Shown here: positions 1-25,945 of the stretch, piece after piece
Position numbering within the stretch: the first letter of the stretch is position 1
Layout: each line of letters opens with the position of its first letter
Origin: a bacterium
GTDB taxonomy: Bacteria > JAMCPX01
DNA: 26,092 nucleotides
Assembly: GCA_021789095.1 (NCBI GenBank)
Contig: JAJYJX010000009.1
Coordinates: 1 to 26,092 of the forward strand
Reading direction: 5' to 3'
Translations under genes and position numbers: made by a program
Notes under the pieces: model-generated
What the model was told of the DNA's origin: nothing
The model's database searches: none
Seen by the model: the letters and a program-made list of their open reading frames with translations, nothing else

Positions 1-334
1 CGATCTTCATGAGTTCGTATTCGACAAACTGGCAGATACTGTTATCCGGAAGTTCCTTGCCAGGATACATGACCTTCATCAAAAGGCAGGCCTGGTACGC
101 AACAGGGGAGTATGGACAGATGTTGTAATAAATGTCCCATGGGCCAAGCTCCCAATAGCACTTCTTGATCGCGGCCTCATACTTGTTCCAATCGGACCAC
201 AGATCAAACATGGTGATACCTGCATAATTTGCAGCAAAGTAATAAATCATGGGTGCAACCGGAACATTACCTGTATATTCCAATTTTATTGCCGACTGTA
301 ACAATTGCTCCGAATTTCTGGTATTCCCGTTCAT
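1..334 (-). CDS. URO-D (uroporphyrinogen decarboxylase)-family protein, partial
   Basis: The gene reads leftward off the window, so only the first 111 codons are present and the C-terminus is missing. The ATG at 334 overlaps the stop of the activator gene upstream (ATGA), and a GGAGGAGA ribosome binding site lies just before it. The visible protein has the N-terminal pattern of the URO-D superfamily: V-P-V-A-P-M-I-Y-Y-F-A-A, then Y-A-G-I-T and D-L-W-S-D-W-N-K, then W-E-L-G-P-W-D. Family members include true HemE and MtaA/MtbA-type methyl transferases acting with corrinoid proteins. Co-transcription with a 2-hydroxyacyl-CoA dehydratase-type system argues against haem synthesis. I infer a role with that system, possibly methyl or corrinoid chemistry, but the substrate is unknown. 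The metal-binding residues would lie in the missing part. Confidence 0.75.
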   Translation of the reverse strand, partial: MNGNTRNSEQLLQSAIKLEYTGNVPVAPMIYYFAANYAGITMFDLWSDWNKYEAAIKKCYWELGPWDIYYNICPYSPVAYQACLLMKVMYPGKELPDNSICQFVEYELMKI

Positions 335-1107
335 TTCTCCTCCTTTGCTATCAATGCCGCACCCAGTGCACCTATGATCTGCGGTTCATCGGGAACAAGT
401 ATATCGAACCCGATCCTGTCTTCAAGCCTTGCCACCAGCGCCCTGTTCTTTGCCATGCCGCCGCTCATTGCAACATCCTGGCCGATCCCGACCCTCTTGG
501 CCAGTGCAACGATCCTGTCTGCAATGGATTTTATGATAGCCCATGCTATATCAGCAACAGTATGTCCCTGTGATAACAGCGACACGACCTCTGATTCACC
601 GAACACGGTGCACGTGGAACTGAGGCTGAGTTCATTCTTGAAAGACAGCGCAGCATCAGAAAGTCCGTCCAGTGACAGGTTCAGCGCGTGTGCCATAACC
701 TCTACAAACCTTCCTGTGCCTGCAGCGCATTTGTCATTCATCGCAAAATCCAGAACCTTGCCGTTTTTCCCGAGCTTCATTGCCTTGCTGTCCTGTCCGC
801 CCACATCTATAAGCGTTGTTACGCCGGGGAATATGACAGACACGCCTTTCGCATGACAGCTTATTTCTGTTTTCTGCATGGTAGCTTCTGTGAATCTTTT
901 CCTGCTGTATCCCGTTGACACAATGGACAATACGTCCTCTCTTTTAAGACCTGCCTTGTTCAGGACCTGCTGGTATGCGCTCATGCCCGCAGCAAAGCTG
1001 TCCTGTCCGATCGGCATTACGTGGTAGCCGAGTATCCTGTTGTTTTCATCTACAACCACGGCCTTGGCTGTAAGAGAACCAACGTCAATACCTGCAAAAT
1101 ATTTCAT
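331..1107 (-). CDS. 2-hydroxyacyl-CoA dehydratase activator ATPase (BadF/BadG/HgdC family)
   Basis: 258 residues, the usual length of the homodimeric HgdC-type activator. This family hydrolyses ATP to push one low-potential electron from a [4Fe-4S] cluster, shared across the dimer, into a dehydratase or benzoyl-CoA reductase partner. The ASKHA fold motifs are complete: G-I-D-V-G-S at 6-11, S-T-G-Y at 64-67, D-V-G-G-Q-D at 101-106, and G-G-M-A-K-N at 216-221. The two cluster cysteines are C127 (K-C-A-A-G-T-G-R-F) and C166 (C-T-V-F-G-E-S-E), spaced as in HgdC. The gene overlaps its neighbours on both sides by 4 bases, so the operon is translationally coupled. A single short activator favours a dehydratase over class I benzoyl-CoA reductase, which uses two unequal activator subunits. 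Confidence 0.93.
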   Translation of the reverse strand: MKYFAGIDVGSLTAKAVVVDENNRILGYHVMPIGQDSFAAGMSAYQQVLNKAGLKREDVLSIVSTGYSRKRFTEATMQKTEISCHAKGVSVIFPGVTTLIDVGGQDSKAMKLGKNGKVLDFAMNDKCAAGTGRFVEVMAHALNLSLDGLSDAALSFKNELSLSSTCTVFGESEVVSLLSQGHTVADIAWAIIKSIADRIVALAKRVGIGQDVAMSGGMAKNRALVARLEDRIGFDILVPDEPQIIGALGAALIAKEEK

Positions 1108-2303
1108 CTATCAAAACTTTCCAGGAACGCCTCAGCCCTTGTTTCGAACTGTGCATCCGAGAAAACCCTTGGATCATTCATATCTGCTTCTATGATCAAT
1201 CCCGGCCTGCCTGTCCTTTTGGTCACTTCTTCTTTCACAATATACTGGCCAATGGAGTACGGCTTGCAGCTGCGGTCTGAATGGAAGACAAGGCCGTCCA
1301 GGGAAAATTCCTCGACCAGCTTGACAAGGTAGTCGGTGCGGTACTTGAAGCCCCTGTTTATGTAAGGTGAAAGGTATGCCCTTGCAAGCTCTTCAAGAGC
1401 GTGGTCGGTATCTATGTCACCCTGCATAGCTGCCCATGAATTCGTGTACGTTGATACAACAAGTGCTGCGCTGTGTTTTGCAAAGAACTCTGACAGGTAT
1501 TTAATCTTGTACCATATAGGCAGGTTGTCCCACAACAGCCTGATCTTCTCATCAGGTACCGAACCAAACCCCTGGTTGCTGAGTTCAACAAGCTCGTCAT
1601 AAAACCGGGTGTAATAATCAACGGCCTTCTGTGTGCCCCTGAGCGTGACAATCGGGGCAAGGTGTATGAACGTATCAAAAGAGTTTATAGGCGAAGGCTT
1701 TTTTTTGCCCATTGCAAGCACCTTTTCCCAGAGATCTGAAACCTGTGCTGCAAGAAAGAGCGTCTCCATGAATTTATCTTCGTTAAAAGGCTTTTTCAAA
1801 ACACCTGAGAGAAATCCTTTGAACGCTTCAAATTGTTTAACGACATAGTTTATCGCATCTTTCGTCATATCGTCATGCAGGTAAGGCATGTCTATTATGA
1901 AAAGGGGGACATTGTACTTTCTTGCATGGACATCGAACCATTTTACGACAGTGTGGCATATATTCGTGCCCACGATAAGCATGTCAGGCTTCGGCAGGCC
2001 GAGGATGGGGCCGCCCTGGGTCATGTCAGCGCCTATATCAGTCCTTGCATACGAGCAGATGTCCTGCGAATAGCCCGCTGCCTCGCTCACCTCCATCAGG
2101 TCTTTACTCATTCTTGTTATCGAACACATCGGCGCATAGTTCTCCGGATAAACGGGTATAACGCCCATCGCATACAGAAACTCAACAGGTCCGCCCGATG
2201 TAATCCACGCTACCGGTGTATTGTTGTAGGCCGCATTCTTTGCTTCAAGATAATATGCGGCCATTATTTCTTTCATGGTCTCTGCCACACGGAATTTCGT
2301 CAT
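1104..2303 (-). CDS. 2-hydroxyacyl-CoA dehydratase / benzoyl-CoA reductase-type subunit (HGD-D family), first of two
   Basis: 399 residues of the HGD-D (HgdB/BcrB/FldB-like) family, whose subunits each hold an Fe-S cluster and remove water from a 2-hydroxyacyl-CoA, or reduce an aromatic ring, after ATP-driven one-electron activation. Likely cluster ligands are C83 (D-I-C-S-Y-A-R), C116 (T-N-I-C-H-T-V-V-K-W-F) and C346 (R-S-C-K-P-Y-S-I-G-Q); C60 is an extra cysteine. The C-terminal G-L-I-I-E-A-D-M-N-D-P-R with a following E-T-R-A-E-A-F is the family signature. The start at 2303 has GGAGG seven bases upstream, inside the preceding gene, and overlaps it by 4 bases. Substrate is undetermined. Alternatives are aromatic-ring reduction or a double-cubane-type ATP-dependent reductase. 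Confidence 0.9.
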   Translation of the reverse strand: MTKFRVAETMKEIMAAYYLEAKNAAYNNTPVAWITSGGPVEFLYAMGVIPVYPENYAPMCSITRMSKDLMEVSEAAGYSQDICSYARTDIGADMTQGGPILGLPKPDMLIVGTNICHTVVKWFDVHARKYNVPLFIIDMPYLHDDMTKDAINYVVKQFEAFKGFLSGVLKKPFNEDKFMETLFLAAQVSDLWEKVLAMGKKKPSPINSFDTFIHLAPIVTLRGTQKAVDYYTRFYDELVELSNQGFGSVPDEKIRLLWDNLPIWYKIKYLSEFFAKHSAALVVSTYTNSWAAMQGDIDTDHALEELARAYLSPYINRGFKYRTDYLVKLVEEFSLDGLVFHSDRSCKPYSIGQYIVKEEVTKRTGRPGLIIEADMNDPRVFSDAQFETRAEAFLESFDR

Positions 2304-3412
2304 ATCTGAACCTCCATAAGTTCCTTGAATGCCTGGAGCCTCGTCTTTATACCTTCAAAACTTGCCATCTGAAGCTCGACCTCAAAGCTGGTAACAGGAA
2401 TATTGTTTTCCTTCAGATAAGATGTAATATCAGGACGTTCAAATGCCTCGGGTTCACAGAACTTTATCTGCCACATAATTACCCCTGCCCTGTTTGATCG
2501 TGCCTTGTCAAGCAGGTAACTGCGCCTGTCTTTTGAGGGATCGAAAAGTGTTGAGCACGGGCTGCCTCCGAATACAAAATTATCCAAGCTCTTTGCATCG
2601 GTGCCCTTCAGTGCGCCTTTCGAGAAACGTCGTGTGCCGCTTGTCAGATCATCATCAACGATGTGCAGTCCGATCTCGTCAAATGCCTTTGTGAGCTCCA
2701 GCGGCTCGGGTGTAATGCCGGATATTATGACCCTGTCCGCGACATCTTTCACGTCCATGCTGCCCAGTGTCTTTACAACCGGTCCGAGCATGCCTGTATA
2801 CTCTTCGGGCGGTAGGAATGACCCTGCCTTCACTATGGAATAAAATTCATACGCCGATAGTGCACCGGGGTTGCGCCGCCTTATGTCATAGAGGTTATTT
2901 ATCAGCGTATTCAGCCTTTCATGAAGCATCAGAGCCTTTTTCAGGCCGTCCTTGGTGAATTTATTGCCTGTTACCCTTTCAAGTTCCGATATTGACCTGT
3001 CAATCTGCTCCTTGAGGTGCTCCTGCCTCAAAGTGACCGATGAGATAAACGGTATCAGAAAGATAATTACGGGTTTGTCAGGAAACAAATTCTTAAAGAC
3101 TTCGGCAAGGTTTTGCTGATTGTCGCACATGGTTGTAAACACAAAGGCGTCAACATAATCCATCTCGCCGTTGAGCGCCTGTTCCAGTATTGTTCTTGTT
3201 GTTGTGCATGAGAACGACTGCATATAGGTGTCCGACCTTGACAGGGGCATCTGCGTTCCGCGGAAATGAACAGGATATGCGCCAAGTGCAGTAATGACCT
3301 CACTCGGGAAATATTCGGGCATTACGCCGATGATCTTTCTGCCGGTCTTTTTCTTCCACTTCCTTGCCAGATTCGCGCTCTCACGGTTTGCTTTAAAGAA
3401 TTCTTCAAACAT
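2300..3412 (-). CDS. 2-hydroxyacyl-CoA dehydratase / benzoyl-CoA reductase-type subunit (HGD-D family), second of two
   Basis: 370 residues, first gene of the operon. It belongs to the same HGD-D family as its downstream neighbour but is clearly divergent from it, consistent with a heterodimer (HgdAB/FldBC/BcrBC style). Cluster-ligand candidates are C69 (Q-S-F-S-C-T-T-T-R), C96 (T-T-M-C-D-N-Q-Q) and C319 (I-K-F-C-E-P-E-A-F-E); C286 lies in a G-G-S-P-C-S loop. The E-G-I-K-T-R-L-Q-A-F tail is typical. The ATG at 3412 has AAGGAGA at 3423-3417. Paired with the activator at 331-1107 it should form a complete ATP-dependent low-potential enzyme working in the cytoplasm under anoxic conditions. Confidence 0.9.
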   Translation of the reverse strand: MFEEFFKANRESANLARKWKKKTGRKIIGVMPEYFPSEVITALGAYPVHFRGTQMPLSRSDTYMQSFSCTTTRTILEQALNGEMDYVDAFVFTTMCDNQQNLAEVFKNLFPDKPVIIFLIPFISSVTLRQEHLKEQIDRSISELERVTGNKFTKDGLKKALMLHERLNTLINNLYDIRRRNPGALSAYEFYSIVKAGSFLPPEEYTGMLGPVVKTLGSMDVKDVADRVIISGITPEPLELTKAFDEIGLHIVDDDLTSGTRRFSKGALKGTDAKSLDNFVFGGSPCSTLFDPSKDRRSYLLDKARSNRAGVIMWQIKFCEPEAFERPDITSYLKENNIPVTSFEVELQMASFEGIKTRLQAFKELMEVQI

Positions 3413-19594: not shown

Positions 19595-20443
19595 ATGGGC
19601 AGAATAGTAAAAGAAGAAGCATACATAGAATCTGCAGGACAGCGCATACACCTCGATATATTCAACAATACGGGAGAAAGTAAAACAATTGCTTTTTTCC
19701 CGGGAACAGGTGCAGCTTCCGAATTCTATGCAACGTTTCTTGAAGCACTTGCATATCAGGGCTTTAATGTTGTGGGCATTGATCCCGTGGGACATGGACA
19801 CTCCTCCGGCAAACGGGGCGATTTCACTGTAGATCAGTTGCTCACAAACTTGCTGGACACTGTATCATACATAAAAACGAAATTTGTAGGCAAAATAGGC
19901 ATCATGGGCAGCAGCCAGGGAGGCATTGTTGTATATTATGCTGCTCTCGAAGGCCTGACAGTTAACGCGGTAGTAGCTCACAACGCAGCACTCGTTTATA
20001 AGGAATTTTTAAATATTGTCAGGCACCCGGGGTTCTGCAGGAGGACGCTGCCTGTTATTGATTATCTGGCAAAGCACTTCCCTTCCATGAAACTCCCGAC
20101 ATCAACATACCTTAACTGGCACAAAGTGTTCAACAATCAAAAGATGCTGAAGATATTTAAGGGGGATAAATTATTTGCGGGTTACTATACCATAAGGGCA
20201 ATGTTTTCCTTAAAGGACTACATACCGAAGCTTAAGGGTCTGCCCATGCCCCCTACAATGATCATAACAGGCTCAGAGGACGGGATCATTTCCAAGGATG
20301 TTTCCGAAAGGGCCTTCTACGAACTAAAGGGAAATCTGCATACCTATGTCGAGATAGAGGGTGCAAGCCATATGCTTCCGCTTGAATACATGTCGCAGAT
20401 CATGCCGAGGATCGTTGACTGGTTTTCAACAAGGCTTGAGTAA
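19595..20443 (+). CDS. Alpha/beta hydrolase, lipase/esterase-like (S33 hydrolase-4 type)
   Basis: 282 residues with no signal peptide. The catalytic triad is readable: nucleophile elbow G-S-S107-Q-G-G, acid D229 in G-S-E-D-G, and H259 in G-A-S-H-M-L-P. The oxyanion region F-P-G-T-G-A at 35-40 and the G-H-G-H-S-S-G-K-R-G segment at 67-76 resemble monoacylglycerol lipase and related lysophospholipase-like enzymes. It probably hydrolyses an ester, perhaps of a lipid. GGGGGGA lies four bases before the ATG. It sits 58 bases upstream of the SCP2-glycyl radical enzyme on the same strand and may be co-transcribed, although a candidate promoter lies between them. Confidence 0.85.
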   Translation: MGRIVKEEAYIESAGQRIHLDIFNNTGESKTIAFFPGTGAASEFYATFLEALAYQGFNVVGIDPVGHGHSSGKRGDFTVDQLLTNLLDTVSYIKTKFVGKIGIMGSSQGGIVVYYAALEGLTVNAVVAHNAALVYKEFLNIVRHPGFCRRTLPVIDYLAKHFPSMKLPTSTYLNWHKVFNNQKMLKIFKGDKLFAGYYTIRAMFSLKDYIPKLKGLPMPPTMIITGSEDGIISKDVSERAFYELKGNLHTYVEIEGASHMLPLEYMSQIMPRIVDWFSTRLE

Positions 20444-20484: not shown

Positions 20485-20501
20485 TTTCCCAAGAGGTGCG
20501 T

Positions 20502-23486
20502 ATGGAACAAAGAGAAAGAAAATCCCTGCTCACAACCCCTTTTATCCTGCAAAACTTGATGTATTTAATCTTAACGGCCATGTCACTCAAGTTTACGTTC
20601 AGCAGGAAGTTCAAAAGACTGATCAAGAACGAGTATGATACATTTAACAGGACGATTGCCATCCAGACCCGGGATAAATCCGTAAAGCTGTACATGGTAT
20701 TCCATGACGGCAAAATGAGTGTAAAACACGGTATACCGGATAAGGCCGATGTAACCATAATATATAAAAGTCCTGAAATAATTAAACAATTCGCCACCCT
20801 TTCCCCTGAGGATATGCTCAATTACCTGCTTACCAACAAGTTTACATTCAAAGGCAACCTCAGCCATCTGTCCAGGTTTGCATACCTGCTGAACAACTTT
20901 GTACCGCCCAAAAACAGCAAGCCCGTGACAAATACGGTGACAAAATCACTGACTGAAAATGAAGAGAAAAAAGAAAAGACCAGACCGCTCATCTCCAGCA
21001 GGGGACAACTCACAGCAAGACAATCCGATAATGTAAAATACCTTGAAGAACCCTACCTGCAGTCATTCACAATAGCTGATTTTCCGGACCTTGAGATACA
21101 AAGGGAACTCCACTTCTCTGTAAAGCCTTCTGTTTGCACTGAGCGGGCAAGGCTCATAACGGAATATCTTATGGAAACAGGGTTTGAGCATGACAGCAAC
21201 GGCAGGAGCCGCACCCCGATACTCAGGCAGGCGCACGCACTCAACTACATCCTGACGCACAAAAGGCCTGTCATAAGAAGCAACAGCCTGCTCGCGGGCG
21301 CAACCACATCAAAGGATGTTGGTGTCATACTATATCCCGAGGGACACGGTATCACGCTCTGGCCGGAACTGAAAACGATATCCGCAAGGAAGATACAGCC
21401 TTATGATATAGATGAAAAGGACAGAGAACTGCTTGATAAAAAGGTATTTCCATTCTGGTCTGACCGCAATGTAAGGGAATACGCAAGAAGAACGAATAAT
21501 TTTCCAAGATACCAGGAACTCGACGAGAAGTTTGTGCTTTATTTTATGTGGAAAACAGTCGCACTGTCACATACCGTACCTGACTTCCCGAGAATGCTTG
21601 CCCACGGCATCATGCCTGTTATAGAGGAAGCGGTAAAGAGGAACAATGCAGCTGCGGATGAAAACAGGAGGCACTTTTACAGCGCCATAGAGACCTCACT
21701 GCAGGGTGTGCTGAACTATGCAAAGCACCTCGAAGAGGAAGCACAAAGGCTGGCTGCACAGGCAGGAAAACAGGGTGCTGACACCAAAACCATAGAACAC
21801 TATAAAAGACTTGCTGATGTTTTGCACAGGGTACCGGCCCGCGGCGCAAGAACACTCGATGAGGCAGTACAGTCATTGTGGATTCTTTGGATCGCACTGC
21901 ATAACGAAAGCACGAATGCGGGTTTATCCCTGGGCCATCTCGATCTATGGCTTCAGCCTTACTTTGAATCGGACATGCAAAAGCTAAAGACGAAACAGGA
22001 AAGGGAAGCTTATGTAAGGCATGCCATAGAACTGATAGGTAATTTCTTCTTCAGATGCCAGGACCACCTTCCGCTTGTTGCTGATGTAGGGAACAAGCTG
22101 TTTGGCGGTTCTTCATCGGACCAGGCAATCACGCTCGGCGGTGTGGATGAAAACGGCAACAGCGCGGTCTGCGATATGACCTACATCTTTCTCAAGGTCA
22201 CAGAAATGCTGACGATACGTGATCCGAATATGAATGCGCGGTACTGTCCGGGCATAAACTCCGACACATACCTGAAAAGGCTTGTCGAGGTAAACATGGT
22301 TACATCTGCAACACCGTCGATCCACAACGATAATGCAATGATACAATCTCTGAAGAGTGTCAATTTCAAAGAAGAAGATGCAAGGCTGTGGTGCGCAACA
22401 GGGTGCGTTGAACCAACCATACCCGGAAAACACTTCGGGCACACCAACAGTATGATGTTCAATATGGTTGCTGCACTTGAAATGGCATTAAACAACGGTA
22501 TACATCCGCTGATAGATGAACAGGTAGGACCAAAAACCGGGTCAATCGAAGAGGACGCTTTCCCTGTTTTTGAAGACTTCTTTCACTCATTTGAACAGCA
22601 GGTGGGCTTTCTGGCGGATCAGACGATAAATTACAACAACAGCCTTGGCAAGGCACACCAGGTTATAAGGCCCACACCTATACTTTCATCCATGTTTGAA
22701 GGACCAATGGACAGGGCAATAGATCTTACAGAAGGCGGCGCTGTGTACAACACATCGGGCGTAGCCTGCATAGGCCTTACAGATATCGTGGACAGCCTTA
22801 TGACCATTAAAAAGCTGGTTTATGACGAAAAGAAAACAGACTTCAAAACACTGCATAAGGCTGTCGCCAGCAACTTCGAGGGCTATGAAAAGCTGTATAC
22901 TATGATCCAGAACAGGGTTCCAAAATTCGGCTCGGACAACCCGGAAGTAAATCAACTTGCACAGAGGGTTGTTACCATGGTGTTTGATATATTTTATAAC
23001 AGGACCAATTACAGGGGCGGTCACTACCTTGTAGGGTTCTGGAGCATGTCAAACCATGTTGCATTCGGCAACCTTTCAGGCGCACTGCCGAGCGGCAGGC
23101 TCAGGTTCAAACCATTCACTCCCGGATTGACTCCTGAAAATGCGAAGGGTGTTGACCTGCTTTCGAGCATCAGGACAATCGCCGGGTTAAAGCCGGAAAA
23201 GATGCCCAACAATATCGCATTTAATGTAAAGATAGCACCCGATTCTCGGGACACACACGAAGAAACAGTCGACCAGATCACGGCCTACACGAAATCATAC
23301 TTTGAACTTGGAGGCATGCAGATACAGTTCAATATTGTCACGACAGAGACGCTTAAGGACGCAATGGTACATCCTGAAAATTACCGGAACCTTCTCGTCA
23401 GGATTTCAGGATATAATGCATACTTTGTTGAGTTAAACAGGGATATGCAGCTTGAGCTCATCGAAAGACAGCAGATGAGGGTATAA
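20502..23486 (+). CDS. Glycyl radical enzyme (dehydratase/lyase branch) with N-terminal SCP2-like domain
   Basis: 994 residues from the ATG at 20502 (AAGAGG five bases before it; a GTG at 20496 would add two residues). Residues ~11-30 form a hydrophobic helix. Residues ~45-132 look like an SCP2 sterol-carrier fold: L-Y-M-V-F-H-D-G-K, A-D-V-T-I-I-Y and F-K-G-N-L. A charged linker (~137-180) follows. The PFL-like barrel spans ~200-860, with thiyl C635 and partner E637 in G-C-V-E-P. The glycyl radical motif is R-I-S-G970-Y-N-A-Y-F. Cys-Val-Glu is the signature of glycerol/diol dehydratase, choline lyase and hydroxyproline dehydratase, not pyruvate formate-lyase. Usual family members lack the first ~190 residues. 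Substrate unknown; a hydrophobic or membrane-held one is inferred. Confidence 0.93.
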   Translation: MEQRERKSLLTTPFILQNLMYLILTAMSLKFTFSRKFKRLIKNEYDTFNRTIAIQTRDKSVKLYMVFHDGKMSVKHGIPDKADVTIIYKSPEIIKQFATLSPEDMLNYLLTNKFTFKGNLSHLSRFAYLLNNFVPPKNSKPVTNTVTKSLTENEEKKEKTRPLISSRGQLTARQSDNVKYLEEPYLQSFTIADFPDLEIQRELHFSVKPSVCTERARLITEYLMETGFEHDSNGRSRTPILRQAHALNYILTHKRPVIRSNSLLAGATTSKDVGVILYPEGHGITLWPELKTISARKIQPYDIDEKDRELLDKKVFPFWSDRNVREYARRTNNFPRYQELDEKFVLYFMWKTVALSHTVPDFPRMLAHGIMPVIEEAVKRNNAAADENRRHFYSAIETSLQGVLNYAKHLEEEAQRLAAQAGKQGADTKTIEHYKRLADVLHRVPARGARTLDEAVQSLWILWIALHNESTNAGLSLGHLDLWLQPYFESDMQKLKTKQEREAYVRHAIELIGNFFFRCQDHLPLVADVGNKLFGGSSSDQAITLGGVDENGNSAVCDMTYIFLKVTEMLTIRDPNMNARYCPGINSDTYLKRLVEVNMVTSATPSIHNDNAMIQSLKSVNFKEEDARLWCATGCVEPTIPGKHFGHTNSMMFNMVAALEMALNNGIHPLIDEQVGPKTGSIEEDAFPVFEDFFHSFEQQVGFLADQTINYNNSLGKAHQVIRPTPILSSMFEGPMDRAIDLTEGGAVYNTSGVACIGLTDIVDSLMTIKKLVYDEKKTDFKTLHKAVASNFEGYEKLYTMIQNRVPKFGSDNPEVNQLAQRVVTMVFDIFYNRTNYRGGHYLVGFWSMSNHVAFGNLSGALPSGRLRFKPFTPGLTPENAKGVDLLSSIRTIAGLKPEKMPNNIAFNVKIAPDSRDTHEETVDQITAYTKSYFELGGMQIQFNIVTTETLKDAMVHPENYRNLLVRISGYNAYFVELNRDMQLELIERQQMRV

Positions 23487-24448
23487 TGGAGCATGTGCTG
23501 CAGTTCAAGGTATACGAACAGCCTCACTCAAGGGATCATGCCCTTATTGTCGACCTTAAGAGGAATTCCCTTGATGACGGTCCGGGTATACGTACATTGG
23601 TTTTCTTCAAGGGGTGCCCGTTGCGGTGCATCTGGTGCCATAATCCTGAGACAAAGCACGCATACCAGGAACTCATGTTCGATGCAAAACAATGCATATC
23701 GTGCGGTGATTGTGCCGTGGTGTGCACTACCAAAGCTCACGTAAAAGCCATTGATCTGTCCGATCCAAAAAGGATCAACCGCGATACATGCACAAAATGC
23801 ATGGAGTGCATAGAAGTTTGCCCGTCCGGTGCGCTTAAAATAGCCGGTAAACTCTACACAACAAATGAACTGTACCTTGAAATCATGAAGGACGAGCCAT
23901 TTTACAGGTATTCTTCGGGCGGCGTAACCTTCTCCGGCGGTGAACCTACAGTATACATGCATTTTTTATCATCACTTGCACAAAGATTGAAAACCGCCGG
24001 TGTCCATCTAAACATAGAGACATGCGGTGTGTACAACCACGAACTATTCAGACAGTTATTGCTGCCTTACCTTGACATGGTATTTTTTGATATAAAATTT
24101 ATAGATCCCTTTATGCATAGAAAATATACAGGCAGGTCCAATACTGACATACTGGAAAATTTTCTTAAGCTGTGTAACCAGAACAGTATACCGGTAACAC
24201 CACGTGTACCGTTAATACCGGATATAACAGCAACAGAGCAAAACCTTTCAGCTATAGCAGATTTTCTGGGACACTACGGCATAAAGAAACTGGAACTGCT
24301 CTCTTACAATCCGCTATGGACGGATAAAGCTTCTGGCCTGGGGCACACGCTCGATTACACCAGGAAAAGGTTCATGGACAAAGAAGAAATAAATAAGATA
24401 AAACAAATATTTGCAGATTTTGACACCGGGAAATTCAGCTCCTCTTGA
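23486..24448 (+). CDS. Glycyl radical enzyme activase (radical SAM)
   Basis: 320 residues. The radical SAM cluster motif is C44-x3-C48-x2-C51 in F-F-K-G-C-P-L-R-C-I-W-C-H-N-P-E. An inserted ferredoxin-like domain carries two further sets, C70/C73/C76/C80 and C102/C105/C108/C112. G-G-E at 151-153 contacts SAM. It cleaves SAM and abstracts hydrogen from the glycine of its partner enzyme, here G970 of the gene immediately upstream. The two auxiliary clusters are typical of activases for the dehydratase/lyase branch and absent from the pyruvate formate-lyase activase. The start shares one base with the upstream stop (TAATG), so the pair is translationally coupled. Confidence 0.95.
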   Translation: MEHVLQFKVYEQPHSRDHALIVDLKRNSLDDGPGIRTLVFFKGCPLRCIWCHNPETKHAYQELMFDAKQCISCGDCAVVCTTKAHVKAIDLSDPKRINRDTCTKCMECIEVCPSGALKIAGKLYTTNELYLEIMKDEPFYRYSSGGVTFSGGEPTVYMHFLSSLAQRLKTAGVHLNIETCGVYNHELFRQLLLPYLDMVFFDIKFIDPFMHRKYTGRSNTDILENFLKLCNQNSIPVTPRVPLIPDITATEQNLSAIADFLGHYGIKKLELLSYNPLWTDKASGLGHTLDYTRKRFMDKEEINKIKQIFADFDTGKFSSS

Positions 24449-24473
24449 CTTCTGAGAAATCAATGTATATAAT
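24445..24473 (+). promoter_or_regulatory. Strong sigma-70-type promoter of rpoH
   Basis: TTGACT (24445-24450), exactly 17 bases, then a perfect TATAAT (24468-24473). The -35 hexamer covers the TGA stop codon of the activase gene (24446-24448). The predicted start near 24480 gives a leader of about 19 bases containing the AAGGAGGAGG ribosome binding site. Confidence 0.8.
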
Positions 24474-24498
24474 TGTTCGTTCTAAGGAGGAGGTAAAT

Positions 24499-25311
24499 AT
24501 GCAGATGGTATTGAACGACAATCTTACAAAATACCTTGCGCAGATAGATAGATATTCTCTTTTGTCCCCTGAGGAAGAAAAGAGGCTGGCAATAAGGTAC
24601 TATGAAAAGAAAGATATACGCGCGGCGCACAAACTGGTAACGTCGAACATGAGATTTGTCGTAAAAATAGCGCTGGAATACAGGCATTACAATGTGAAGC
24701 TTATGGACCTGATCCAGGAAGGCAATCTTGGCCTGATGATGGCTGTAAAAAAATTCAATCCTTACAAGGGTTTCAGGCTTATCTCTTATGCCGTATGGTG
24801 GATCAGGGCTTATATTCAGAATTACATAATGAAGACATGGAGCTTGGTTAAGATAGGGACTACGCAGCTTCAGAGAAAGCTGTTCTATTCATTGAACAAG
24901 ACACACTCAGAGAACAACGCGGACGTGCTGATAGACGAAAGCAAGATAGAGAAAAAAGCCAGGGAATTTGAGAACAGGCTTAGACTGAGGGATGTTTCTC
25001 TTGATATTACCCTGGATCAGGAAAGCAGGGAATCACATCTTGACCAGCTTGTAGATGAGGAAGAAAACCTTGAAGAGCGCATAAGCAAGCAGGAAGAAGA
25101 CGCAGTTCTAAGGCAAACAGTAAGTCGTGCTGTGAAGGTCTTACCGGAAAGAGAGCAGTACATAATCAAATACAGGGTAATGTCAGACAACCCGCTTTCT
25201 TTGCAGGAGATCGGAGAGAAATACCACATATCCAAGGAGCGGGTAAGGCAGCTTGAACAAAAAGCACTGGCTAAACTCAAATATTCTATAGTTCCTGCAA
25301 TAGCATCATAA
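24499..25311 (+). CDS. rpoH: RNA polymerase sigma factor RpoH (sigma-32 type)
   Basis: 270 residues from the ATG at 24499, which has an exceptionally good AAGGAGGAGG site. An in-frame ATG at 24445 lies on the promoter and would add 18 unrelated residues. Region 2 is clear: N-M-R-F-V-V-K-I-A at 50-58, D-L-I-Q-E-G-N-L-G-L at 70-79, then F-R-L-I-S-Y-A-V-W-W-I-R at 92-103. The RpoH box is Q-R-K-L-F at 125-129. The region 4.2 helix-turn-helix is S-L-Q-E-I-G-E-K-Y-H-I-S-K-E-R-V-R-Q-L-E at 234-253. It directs transcription of heat-shock genes. The sequence matches RpoH rather than RpoD, which is larger and has region 1.1. Confidence 0.92.
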   Translation: MQMVLNDNLTKYLAQIDRYSLLSPEEEKRLAIRYYEKKDIRAAHKLVTSNMRFVVKIALEYRHYNVKLMDLIQEGNLGLMMAVKKFNPYKGFRLISYAVWWIRAYIQNYIMKTWSLVKIGTTQLQRKLFYSLNKTHSENNADVLIDESKIEKKAREFENRLRLRDVSLDITLDQESRESHLDQLVDEEENLEERISKQEEDAVLRQTVSRAVKVLPEREQYIIKYRVMSDNPLSLQEIGEKYHISKERVRQLEQKALAKLKYSIVPAIAS

Positions 25312-25332
25312 CAAAATAGAGAACCTATACCT

Positions 25333-25370
25333 ATAGGTGGCAGAATGGATTTCTGCCACCTATTTCTTTT
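25333..25370 (+). terminator. Rho-independent terminator after rpoH
   Basis: ATAGGTGGCAGAA (25333-25345) and TTCTGCCACCTAT (25351-25363) form a perfect 13-base-pair stem with a 5-base loop, followed by TTCTTTT. It starts 21 bases after the rpoH stop and separates rpoH from divIVA. Confidence 0.9.
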
Positions 25371-25374
25371 ATAA

Positions 25375-25404
25375 TTGGACATTTTCAACCAATTGGTGTA
25401 TATT
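25375..25404 (+). promoter_or_regulatory. Candidate divIVA promoter with a palindrome in the spacer
   Basis: TTGGAC (25375-25380), an 18-base spacer and TATATT (25399-25404), immediately after the rpoH terminator. The spacer contains the 10-base palindrome ACCAATTGGT (25388-25397), a possible operator. Confidence 0.55.
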
Positions 25405-25426
25405 TTTGCCTAAGGAGGTAAATGTT

Positions 25427-25945
25427 ATGAAACTGACCCCGCTTGATATTCAGCAACAGCAGTTCAGGAAAAAGATTTTAAACGGCTACGATAAGCGTGA
25501 GGTTGATATGTTTATGGAGCTTGTGCGCAATGAGATGGAAGAATTGATCACCGAGAACATGGGCATAAAGCAGCAGATCAAGGAAAAAACATTAACCCTC
25601 AACGAGTACAGGGACAGGGAACAGACCATAAAGGAGACAATGATCACAACCCAGCGTTTAAAAGATGATATACGTGCAAACTCCGTAAAAGAGGCACAGC
25701 TTATTATCGCGGACGCCAAGATTAAGGCAGAGGAGATCATAAACAGTGCACAAAACAGGTACATGGAGATCATAAACGAGATAAAAGAGTTAAGAAGGCA
25801 GAAGATACAGCTTGAGGCAAGCCTTAGGGCTGTGCTCGAAACACATCTAAAGATGCTTGACACTGAAACGGCGAAGGAACAAAAAGACATAGACGATACA
25901 CTTGCCGTCATGATGAATAAATCAAAAAGCTCTAATGCAAGATAA
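25427..25945 (+). CDS. DivIVA-domain coiled-coil protein
   Basis: 172 residues from the ATG at 25427, preceded by TAAGGAGG; an in-frame ATG at 25337 lies in the terminator and is rejected. The N-terminus L-T-P-L-D-I-x5-F-R-K-K-x3[10 protein letters not shown] is the DivIVA membrane-binding and early coiled-coil signature. Residues ~25-150 are almost wholly charged and helical with heptad-like spacing. DivIVA proteins bind curved membrane and recruit division, polarity or envelope-growth factors. In Gram-negative deltaproteobacterial relatives the role is poorly defined. The next gene (YggU/DUF167) overlaps its end by 11 bases, a common neighbour pairing. Confidence 0.9.

Follow-up and report, generated by a model that had tools for sequence, protein, structure and literature searches.

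What would a glycyl radical enzyme (GRE) do with a lipid-carrier domain? To our knowledge, characterized GREs, hydrocarbon-activating fumarate adders aside, act on small polar metabolites. In the window, the whole stretch of 26,092 nucleotides of bacterial DNA analyzed here, a single gene joins an SCP2 domain to a GRE. The most likely explanation from our analysis is that the SCP2 domain would hold a hydrophobic molecule for the radical site, where the glutamate of the CXE motif would support elimination to a carbonyl. The gene and its parts were located as follows.

20492..20497, + strand: Shine-Dalgarno-like AGAGGT in the sequence upstream of the ATG at 20502
20502..23486, + strand: SCP2-GRE fusion gene, 994 aa, ATG at 20502, stop codon at 23484-23486
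20535..20909, + strand: SCP2 domain, residues 12-136, from profile matches and the predicted fold
20910..21029, + strand: flexible linker, residues about 137-176, of low pLDDT and fast evolving
21084..23471, + strand: GRE barrel and glycyl radical domain, residues 195-990, from Pfam and the predicted structure

The fusion had been claimed in a preliminary description made from the DNA alone, and the Pfam profiles bear it out. When the full-length protein was scanned, SCP2 (PF02036) matched residues 47-129 with 20.5 bits, just below the gathering cut-off of 21.3, and residues 1-148 scanned alone gave 24.9 bits, above the cut-off. The PFL-like (E 1.1e-159) and Gly_radical (E 6.6e-23) domains, both above cut-off, together spanned residues 199-976. 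Among 48 homologous N-termini and stand-alone proteins, 30 matched SCP2 at E <= 0.1, and a profile of those 48 sequences searched against the PDB returned rabbit and human SCP2 on top, with modest E values of 0.005-0.008. No match was found against the PDB when residues 1-163 were used as a single-sequence phmmer query. An AlphaFold model of residues 1-148 (pLDDT 78.5) was then submitted to the fold search that the preliminary description had proposed as a check, and the answer was SCP2: human SCP-2L (8af3) aligned with Z 13.0 and an rmsd of 2.5 A over 110 residues within 12-136, followed at Z 11-12.5 by mosquito SCP2, UbiJ, and alkylsulfatases through their SCP2 domains. Residues 12-136 are thus predicted to fold as SCP2. 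The domain had been placed at residues ~45-132; its identity holds, and its borders have to be moved to about 12-136. The gene call, Pfam scores, profile matches, and predicted fold together make the SCP2-GRE observation more than chance.

The model of the whole protein (mean pLDDT 84.8, pTM 0.88) gave pLDDT values below 50 for residues 138-167, which suggests that the SCP2 domain sits on a flexible tether. Comparison of four sequences of the window's own family gave pN/pS values of 0.08-0.32 for the SCP2 domain and 0.12-0.19 for the enzyme, unlike the linker with 0.52-0.75; between the window and L093 the values were 0.132 for the SCP2 domain and 0.134 for the enzyme. Judged from these ratios, the SCP2 domain is under purifying selection nearly as strong as that on the enzyme within the family. 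In genome G004 (L095 10554-11036, the same place as in L003, L032, and L080), an in-frame TGA lies within the linker, so that the SCP2 reading frame stops and the GRE frame continues. This TGA may be a sequencing error, a read-through codon, or a natural split.

The fusion was found in 5 of the 9 sampled genomes of the window's own family and, with phyla separated by tool-assigned kinship groups, in 4/7 genomes of a second phylum, all seven of a third, and one of the two of a fourth group. It was present in 1 of 400 sampled Chloroflexota genomes and is therefore rare there. Within the phylum of a Lokiarchaeota genome, matches that extend into the N-terminal domain were counted in 32 of 227 genomes, three of which had two copies. 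Plasmids yielded no close relative of the fusion, the best identity being 28-30%. With 44 loci in the retrieved set, and with purifying selection, an assembly artifact was ruled out as the source of the fusion.

Unfused sister GREs were examined for a separate SCP2 protein. An SCP2-like gene adjoins the enzyme in 11 of the 12 such GREs in the tree described below. These free-standing genes encode 136-188 residues, and several lie directly before the activase gene, i.e., between GRE and activase. In L119 and L121 one gene separates the GRE from the SCP2-like gene; it encodes a transglutaminase-like, apparently exported protein (L119 5511-6821, - strand; L121 11143-12468, + strand), and a GntR/FadR-type regulator is located upstream at both loci. 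Two further SCP2-linked cases, L126 and L042, were detected by profile. The one in L126 (1564-2616, - strand) is an SCP2-like region inside a protein of 351 residues; this protein is membrane-like at its N-terminus and adjoins an archaeal GRE. A profile built from the stand-alone proteins only reached SCP2 at E 1.1, ranked under unrelated matches; their link to SCP2 comes from their similarity to the fused domain, the fused-only and free-standing-only profiles aligning in hhalign with a probability of 99.5% and E 9e-23. The SCP2-GRE pairing is a conserved system over several bacterial phyla and the Asgard archaea and not an isolated fusion.

The tree was built from 70 GREs, with the SCP2 columns excluded and BssA, MasD, and HPD not included. 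The 27 fused sequences formed one branch (SH-aLRT 100), as did these 27 together with 11 linked enzymes and L127, in which no SCP2 was detected (SH-aLRT 100). No SCP2 was detected for the outside neighbors in this tree, the Archaeoglobus fulgidus PflD group included. The simplest reading, with rooting and support taken from a quick search, would be that an SCP2 partner was gained once and that a single fusion came later.

The SCP2 fold could instead be a structural or regulatory module, serving in dimerization, protection of the glycyl radical, or activase docking, and carrying no lipid, as in the acetyltransferase Eis. SCP2 folds can lose lipid binding, Eis chains with their C-terminal SCP2-like domain appeared in the same fold list with Z about 7, and the position of several sister SCP2-like genes directly before the activase gene would also suit such a module. 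We nonetheless consider it unlikely, since lipid-binding SCP2 and alkylsulfatase SCP2 domains match far better (Z 11-13) than Eis, and since some 40 residues of flexible linker are better suited to a mobile carrier than to a rigid scaffold.

Less probable still is that SCP2 provides only a reversible membrane anchor, keeping a GRE with a soluble substrate close to a partner in the membrane, for example a transporter or an electron carrier. The first helix is hydrophobic in the window family, and the membrane-like N-terminus of the 351-residue protein in one sister locus points the same way. The preliminary description had read a hydrophobic helix preceding the SCP2 domain. That helix, however, is the first one of the SCP2 fold itself; its maximal KD19 hydrophobicity is 1.48 in the window protein and near 0 in most archaeal homologues. 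A transmembrane anchor was ruled out, as the helix is part of the fold and does not resemble a TM segment, and separate anchoring in the membrane through it is not supported.

The key residues of the catalytic half were mapped as follows.

21570..21572, + strand: H357, invariant counterpart of glycerol dehydratase (GDH) H164
22404..22412, + strand: C635-V636-E637, eliminase-type CXE motif, invariant across the fused clade
23409..23411, + strand: G970, the glycyl radical site within VRISGYNAYF, from Pfam and the alignment

As had been proposed, C635, E637, and G970 mark a complete GRE: all three were invariant in an alignment of 38 homologues, and the fusion protein is, on this evidence, a complete GRE with catalytic cysteine and glycyl radical loop. 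The best structural matches to the predicted enzyme were GDH, A. fulgidus PflD, propanediol dehydratase, and CutC (Z 43-44), followed in the fold search by MasD (Z 37), BssA (Z 36), and PFL (Z 32). GRE eliminases are marked by the conserved CXE motif, and aldehydes are the products of most of them (PMC7077986). Motif and fold together support the earlier reading of an eliminase, and 1,2-elimination is the predicted reaction. Pyruvate formate-lyase was rejected as an identity because the adjacent active-site cysteines are missing, G634-C635 standing where E. coli PflB has C-C. The window GRE reached none of the NCBIfam equivalog cut-offs for CutC, HypD, HpsG/HpfG, HPD, indoleacetate decarboxylase, and PFL; its best score was 391.6 bits for CutC against a cut-off of 1050, with all others far below. 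Among the characterized clades that could be tested with NCBIfam and the 70-GRE tree, the catalytic domain was placed in none. The above considerations suggest that the window protein is an eliminase-type GRE to which a conserved SCP2 partner belongs.

Of the residues that hold the diol in GDH (H164, H281, S282, and D447), the window enzyme has H357, A473, G474, and N649 in their places, and only H164 is kept. Across the fused clade, H281 is replaced by A/S/V/M/T, S282 by G/A, and D447 by N/G; Y640 is tryptophan across the clade and phenylalanine in L042. At the H281, S282, and D447 positions the new residues are thus small or apolar, and the replacements would fit a less polar, roomier pocket.

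Activation of a hydrocarbon, alkane or alkylbenzene, by addition to fumarate has been proposed for A. fulgidus PflD and for Hermodarchaeota homologues, but has very little probability here. In its favor, PflD is the closest PDB sequence (385 bits), belongs to the nearest outgroups of the tree, and has been suggested to be an alkylsuccinate synthase, Asgard archaeal GREs being discussed as putative alkyl- or benzylsuccinate synthases from PflD similarity (PMC8163825). Against it, that assignment is disputed, pflD-type genes having been excluded as not fumarate-adding (PMC6776118), the CXE eliminase motif is retained, MasD (191 bits) and BssA (150 bits) match more weakly in sequence and in fold, and none of the small iron-sulfur subunits of fumarate-adding synthases was seen among the scanned neighbor genes. 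An identity as an X-succinate/alkylsuccinate synthase was set aside on the motif, the scores, and the folds. The chain of PDB 8iof carries two names: the sequence matches list it as benzylsuccinate synthase alpha subunit, the structure matches as N-methyl-cis-4-hydroxy-D-proline dehydratase.

We return to the eliminase with its lipid carrier. Our proposal, held with somewhat better than even confidence, is an eliminase-type GRE whose substrate, delivered by SCP2, is hydrophobic: an alcohol, a diol, or a molecule like a glycerol lipid. The SCP2 domain, tethered or as a separate subunit in the sister systems, would extract the substrate from the membrane, shield its tail, and offer the polar end to the active site, which lies buried. 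The radical would be installed on G970 by the co-transcribed activase, from where it would move to C635, and C635 would take a hydrogen from the hydroxyl-bearing carbon. With the help of H357, E637 would remove the hydroxyl proton, and a neighboring group would leave to give an aldehyde or ketone for use by downstream enzymes. Lipid binding, the hand-over, the class of substrate, and the aldehyde product are what we infer. Presentation of a lipid by SCP2 is supported indirectly by the adjacent SCP2 gene in the unfused sisters, the disordered tether, and the lost polar pocket residues.

Known systems resemble the window protein in part. B12-independent GDH and 1,2-propanediol dehydratase share with its GRE the barrel fold (Z 44), the CXE motif, the His164 equivalent, and a dedicated radical SAM activase; identity is 28%, H281, S282, D447, and Y640 are replaced in the window GRE, and the N-terminal SCP2 domain sets it apart. 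A. fulgidus PflD (PDB 2f3o), of putative function, has 776 aa, is without an SCP2 domain, and keeps D at the GDH D447 position. The alkylsulfatases SdsA1/PisA1 are, like the window protein, enzymes with a fused SCP2 domain, and theirs act on aliphatic substrates; their SCP2 domain is C-terminal, and their catalytic domain is a metallo-beta-lactamase hydrolase. The SCP2 domains of human MFE-2/SCP-2L, UbiJ, and UbiT have the same fold as the window domain, at an identity under 20%; they serve ubiquinone or fatty-acid enzymes, none of them a radical enzyme. Two of them are a precedent for the holding role proposed here: UbiJ binds hydrophobic intermediates of ubiquinone on behalf of its enzymes, and the same has been proposed for UbiT under anoxic conditions, with a UbiT-UbiU fusion occurring in nature (PMC6747719).

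Examination of the genes next to the fusion gave the following features.

19595..20443, + strand: alpha/beta hydrolase gene (Hydrolase_4), directly upstream of the fusion gene
23486..24448, + strand: radical SAM activase gene (TIGR02494), its start codon sharing one base with the GRE stop codon
24445..25311, + strand: sigma-32-like factor gene, downstream of the activase gene, conserved only inside the own family

The 3' neighbor of the fusion gene is thus a radical SAM activase, the partner that marks members of the GRE superfamily. It scored 302.6 bits in the NCBIfam scan against a cut-off of 174.35, and the overlap of its start codon with the GRE stop codon makes it very probable that both are translated together. 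The pairing of hydrolase and fusion is absent as a conserved feature in sister genomes, so the hydrolase is possibly unrelated. The sigma-32-like factor is probably an operon neighbor and not part of the system. It is followed in the window by a DivIVA gene (24445-25942 for the two); similar sigma factor and DivIVA genes come after the activase in G001, and a sigma factor does in G004. This stretch is an operon extension specific to the family.

Some loci of the Lokiarchaeota phylum have a gene for aldehyde ferredoxin oxidoreductase (AOR) no more than three genes downstream; it was that close and on the same strand in 6 of 33 archaeal loci. On the opposite side, many of these relatives have genes like those for carotenoid desaturase and ferredoxin reductase. 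All three neighbors are confined to close relatives, and they are compatible with an eliminase and carbonyl mechanism. Weighing against the lipid-fed eliminase are this limit of the AOR link and the own-family neighborhood (hydrolase, sigma factor, and DivIVA), which varies and tells little about the substrate. In the second phylum a sugar-kinase-family gene adjoins the GRE in two loci; an assignment as glycerol kinase was set aside as too unspecific, the best score being XylB and under every FGGY equivalog cut-off.

A bolder and doubtful extension is that the whole branch, in several bacterial phyla and the Asgard archaea, could be an unrecognized GRE clade for radical elimination on membrane-derived lipids, with SCP2 as carrier, by which microbes without oxygen would gain an oxygen-free route into such lipids; examples of substrates would be mono-alkyl or mono-acyl glycerols from ether or ester lipids. 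If the eliminase reading is true, a conserved lipid-carrier partner, fused or next door, would bring substrates insoluble in water within reach of elimination by GREs, and could account for some of the lipid turnover in anaerobic sediments. The SCP2 linkage also gives a concrete handle on Asgard archaeal GREs, some of which may carry a default annotation as pyruvate formate-lyase or alkylsuccinate synthase. No publication pairing SCP2 with a GRE or pyruvate formate-lyase was found in the open-access library searched; Pfam or InterPro may nevertheless already contain the architecture as an undescribed entry.

Two further observations concern the window and its family. On the - strand of the window, positions 331-3412 hold three genes in a row that resemble 2-hydroxyacyl-CoA dehydratase / benzoyl-CoA reductase systems: one for a BadF-type ATPase and two for HGD-D subunits. 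A second, unrelated GRE, missing from the window's assembly, is present in sister genomes of the own family (L019-L023; open frames of 707-867 aa), with the motif CVEPT in L023 and CIEI in L022.
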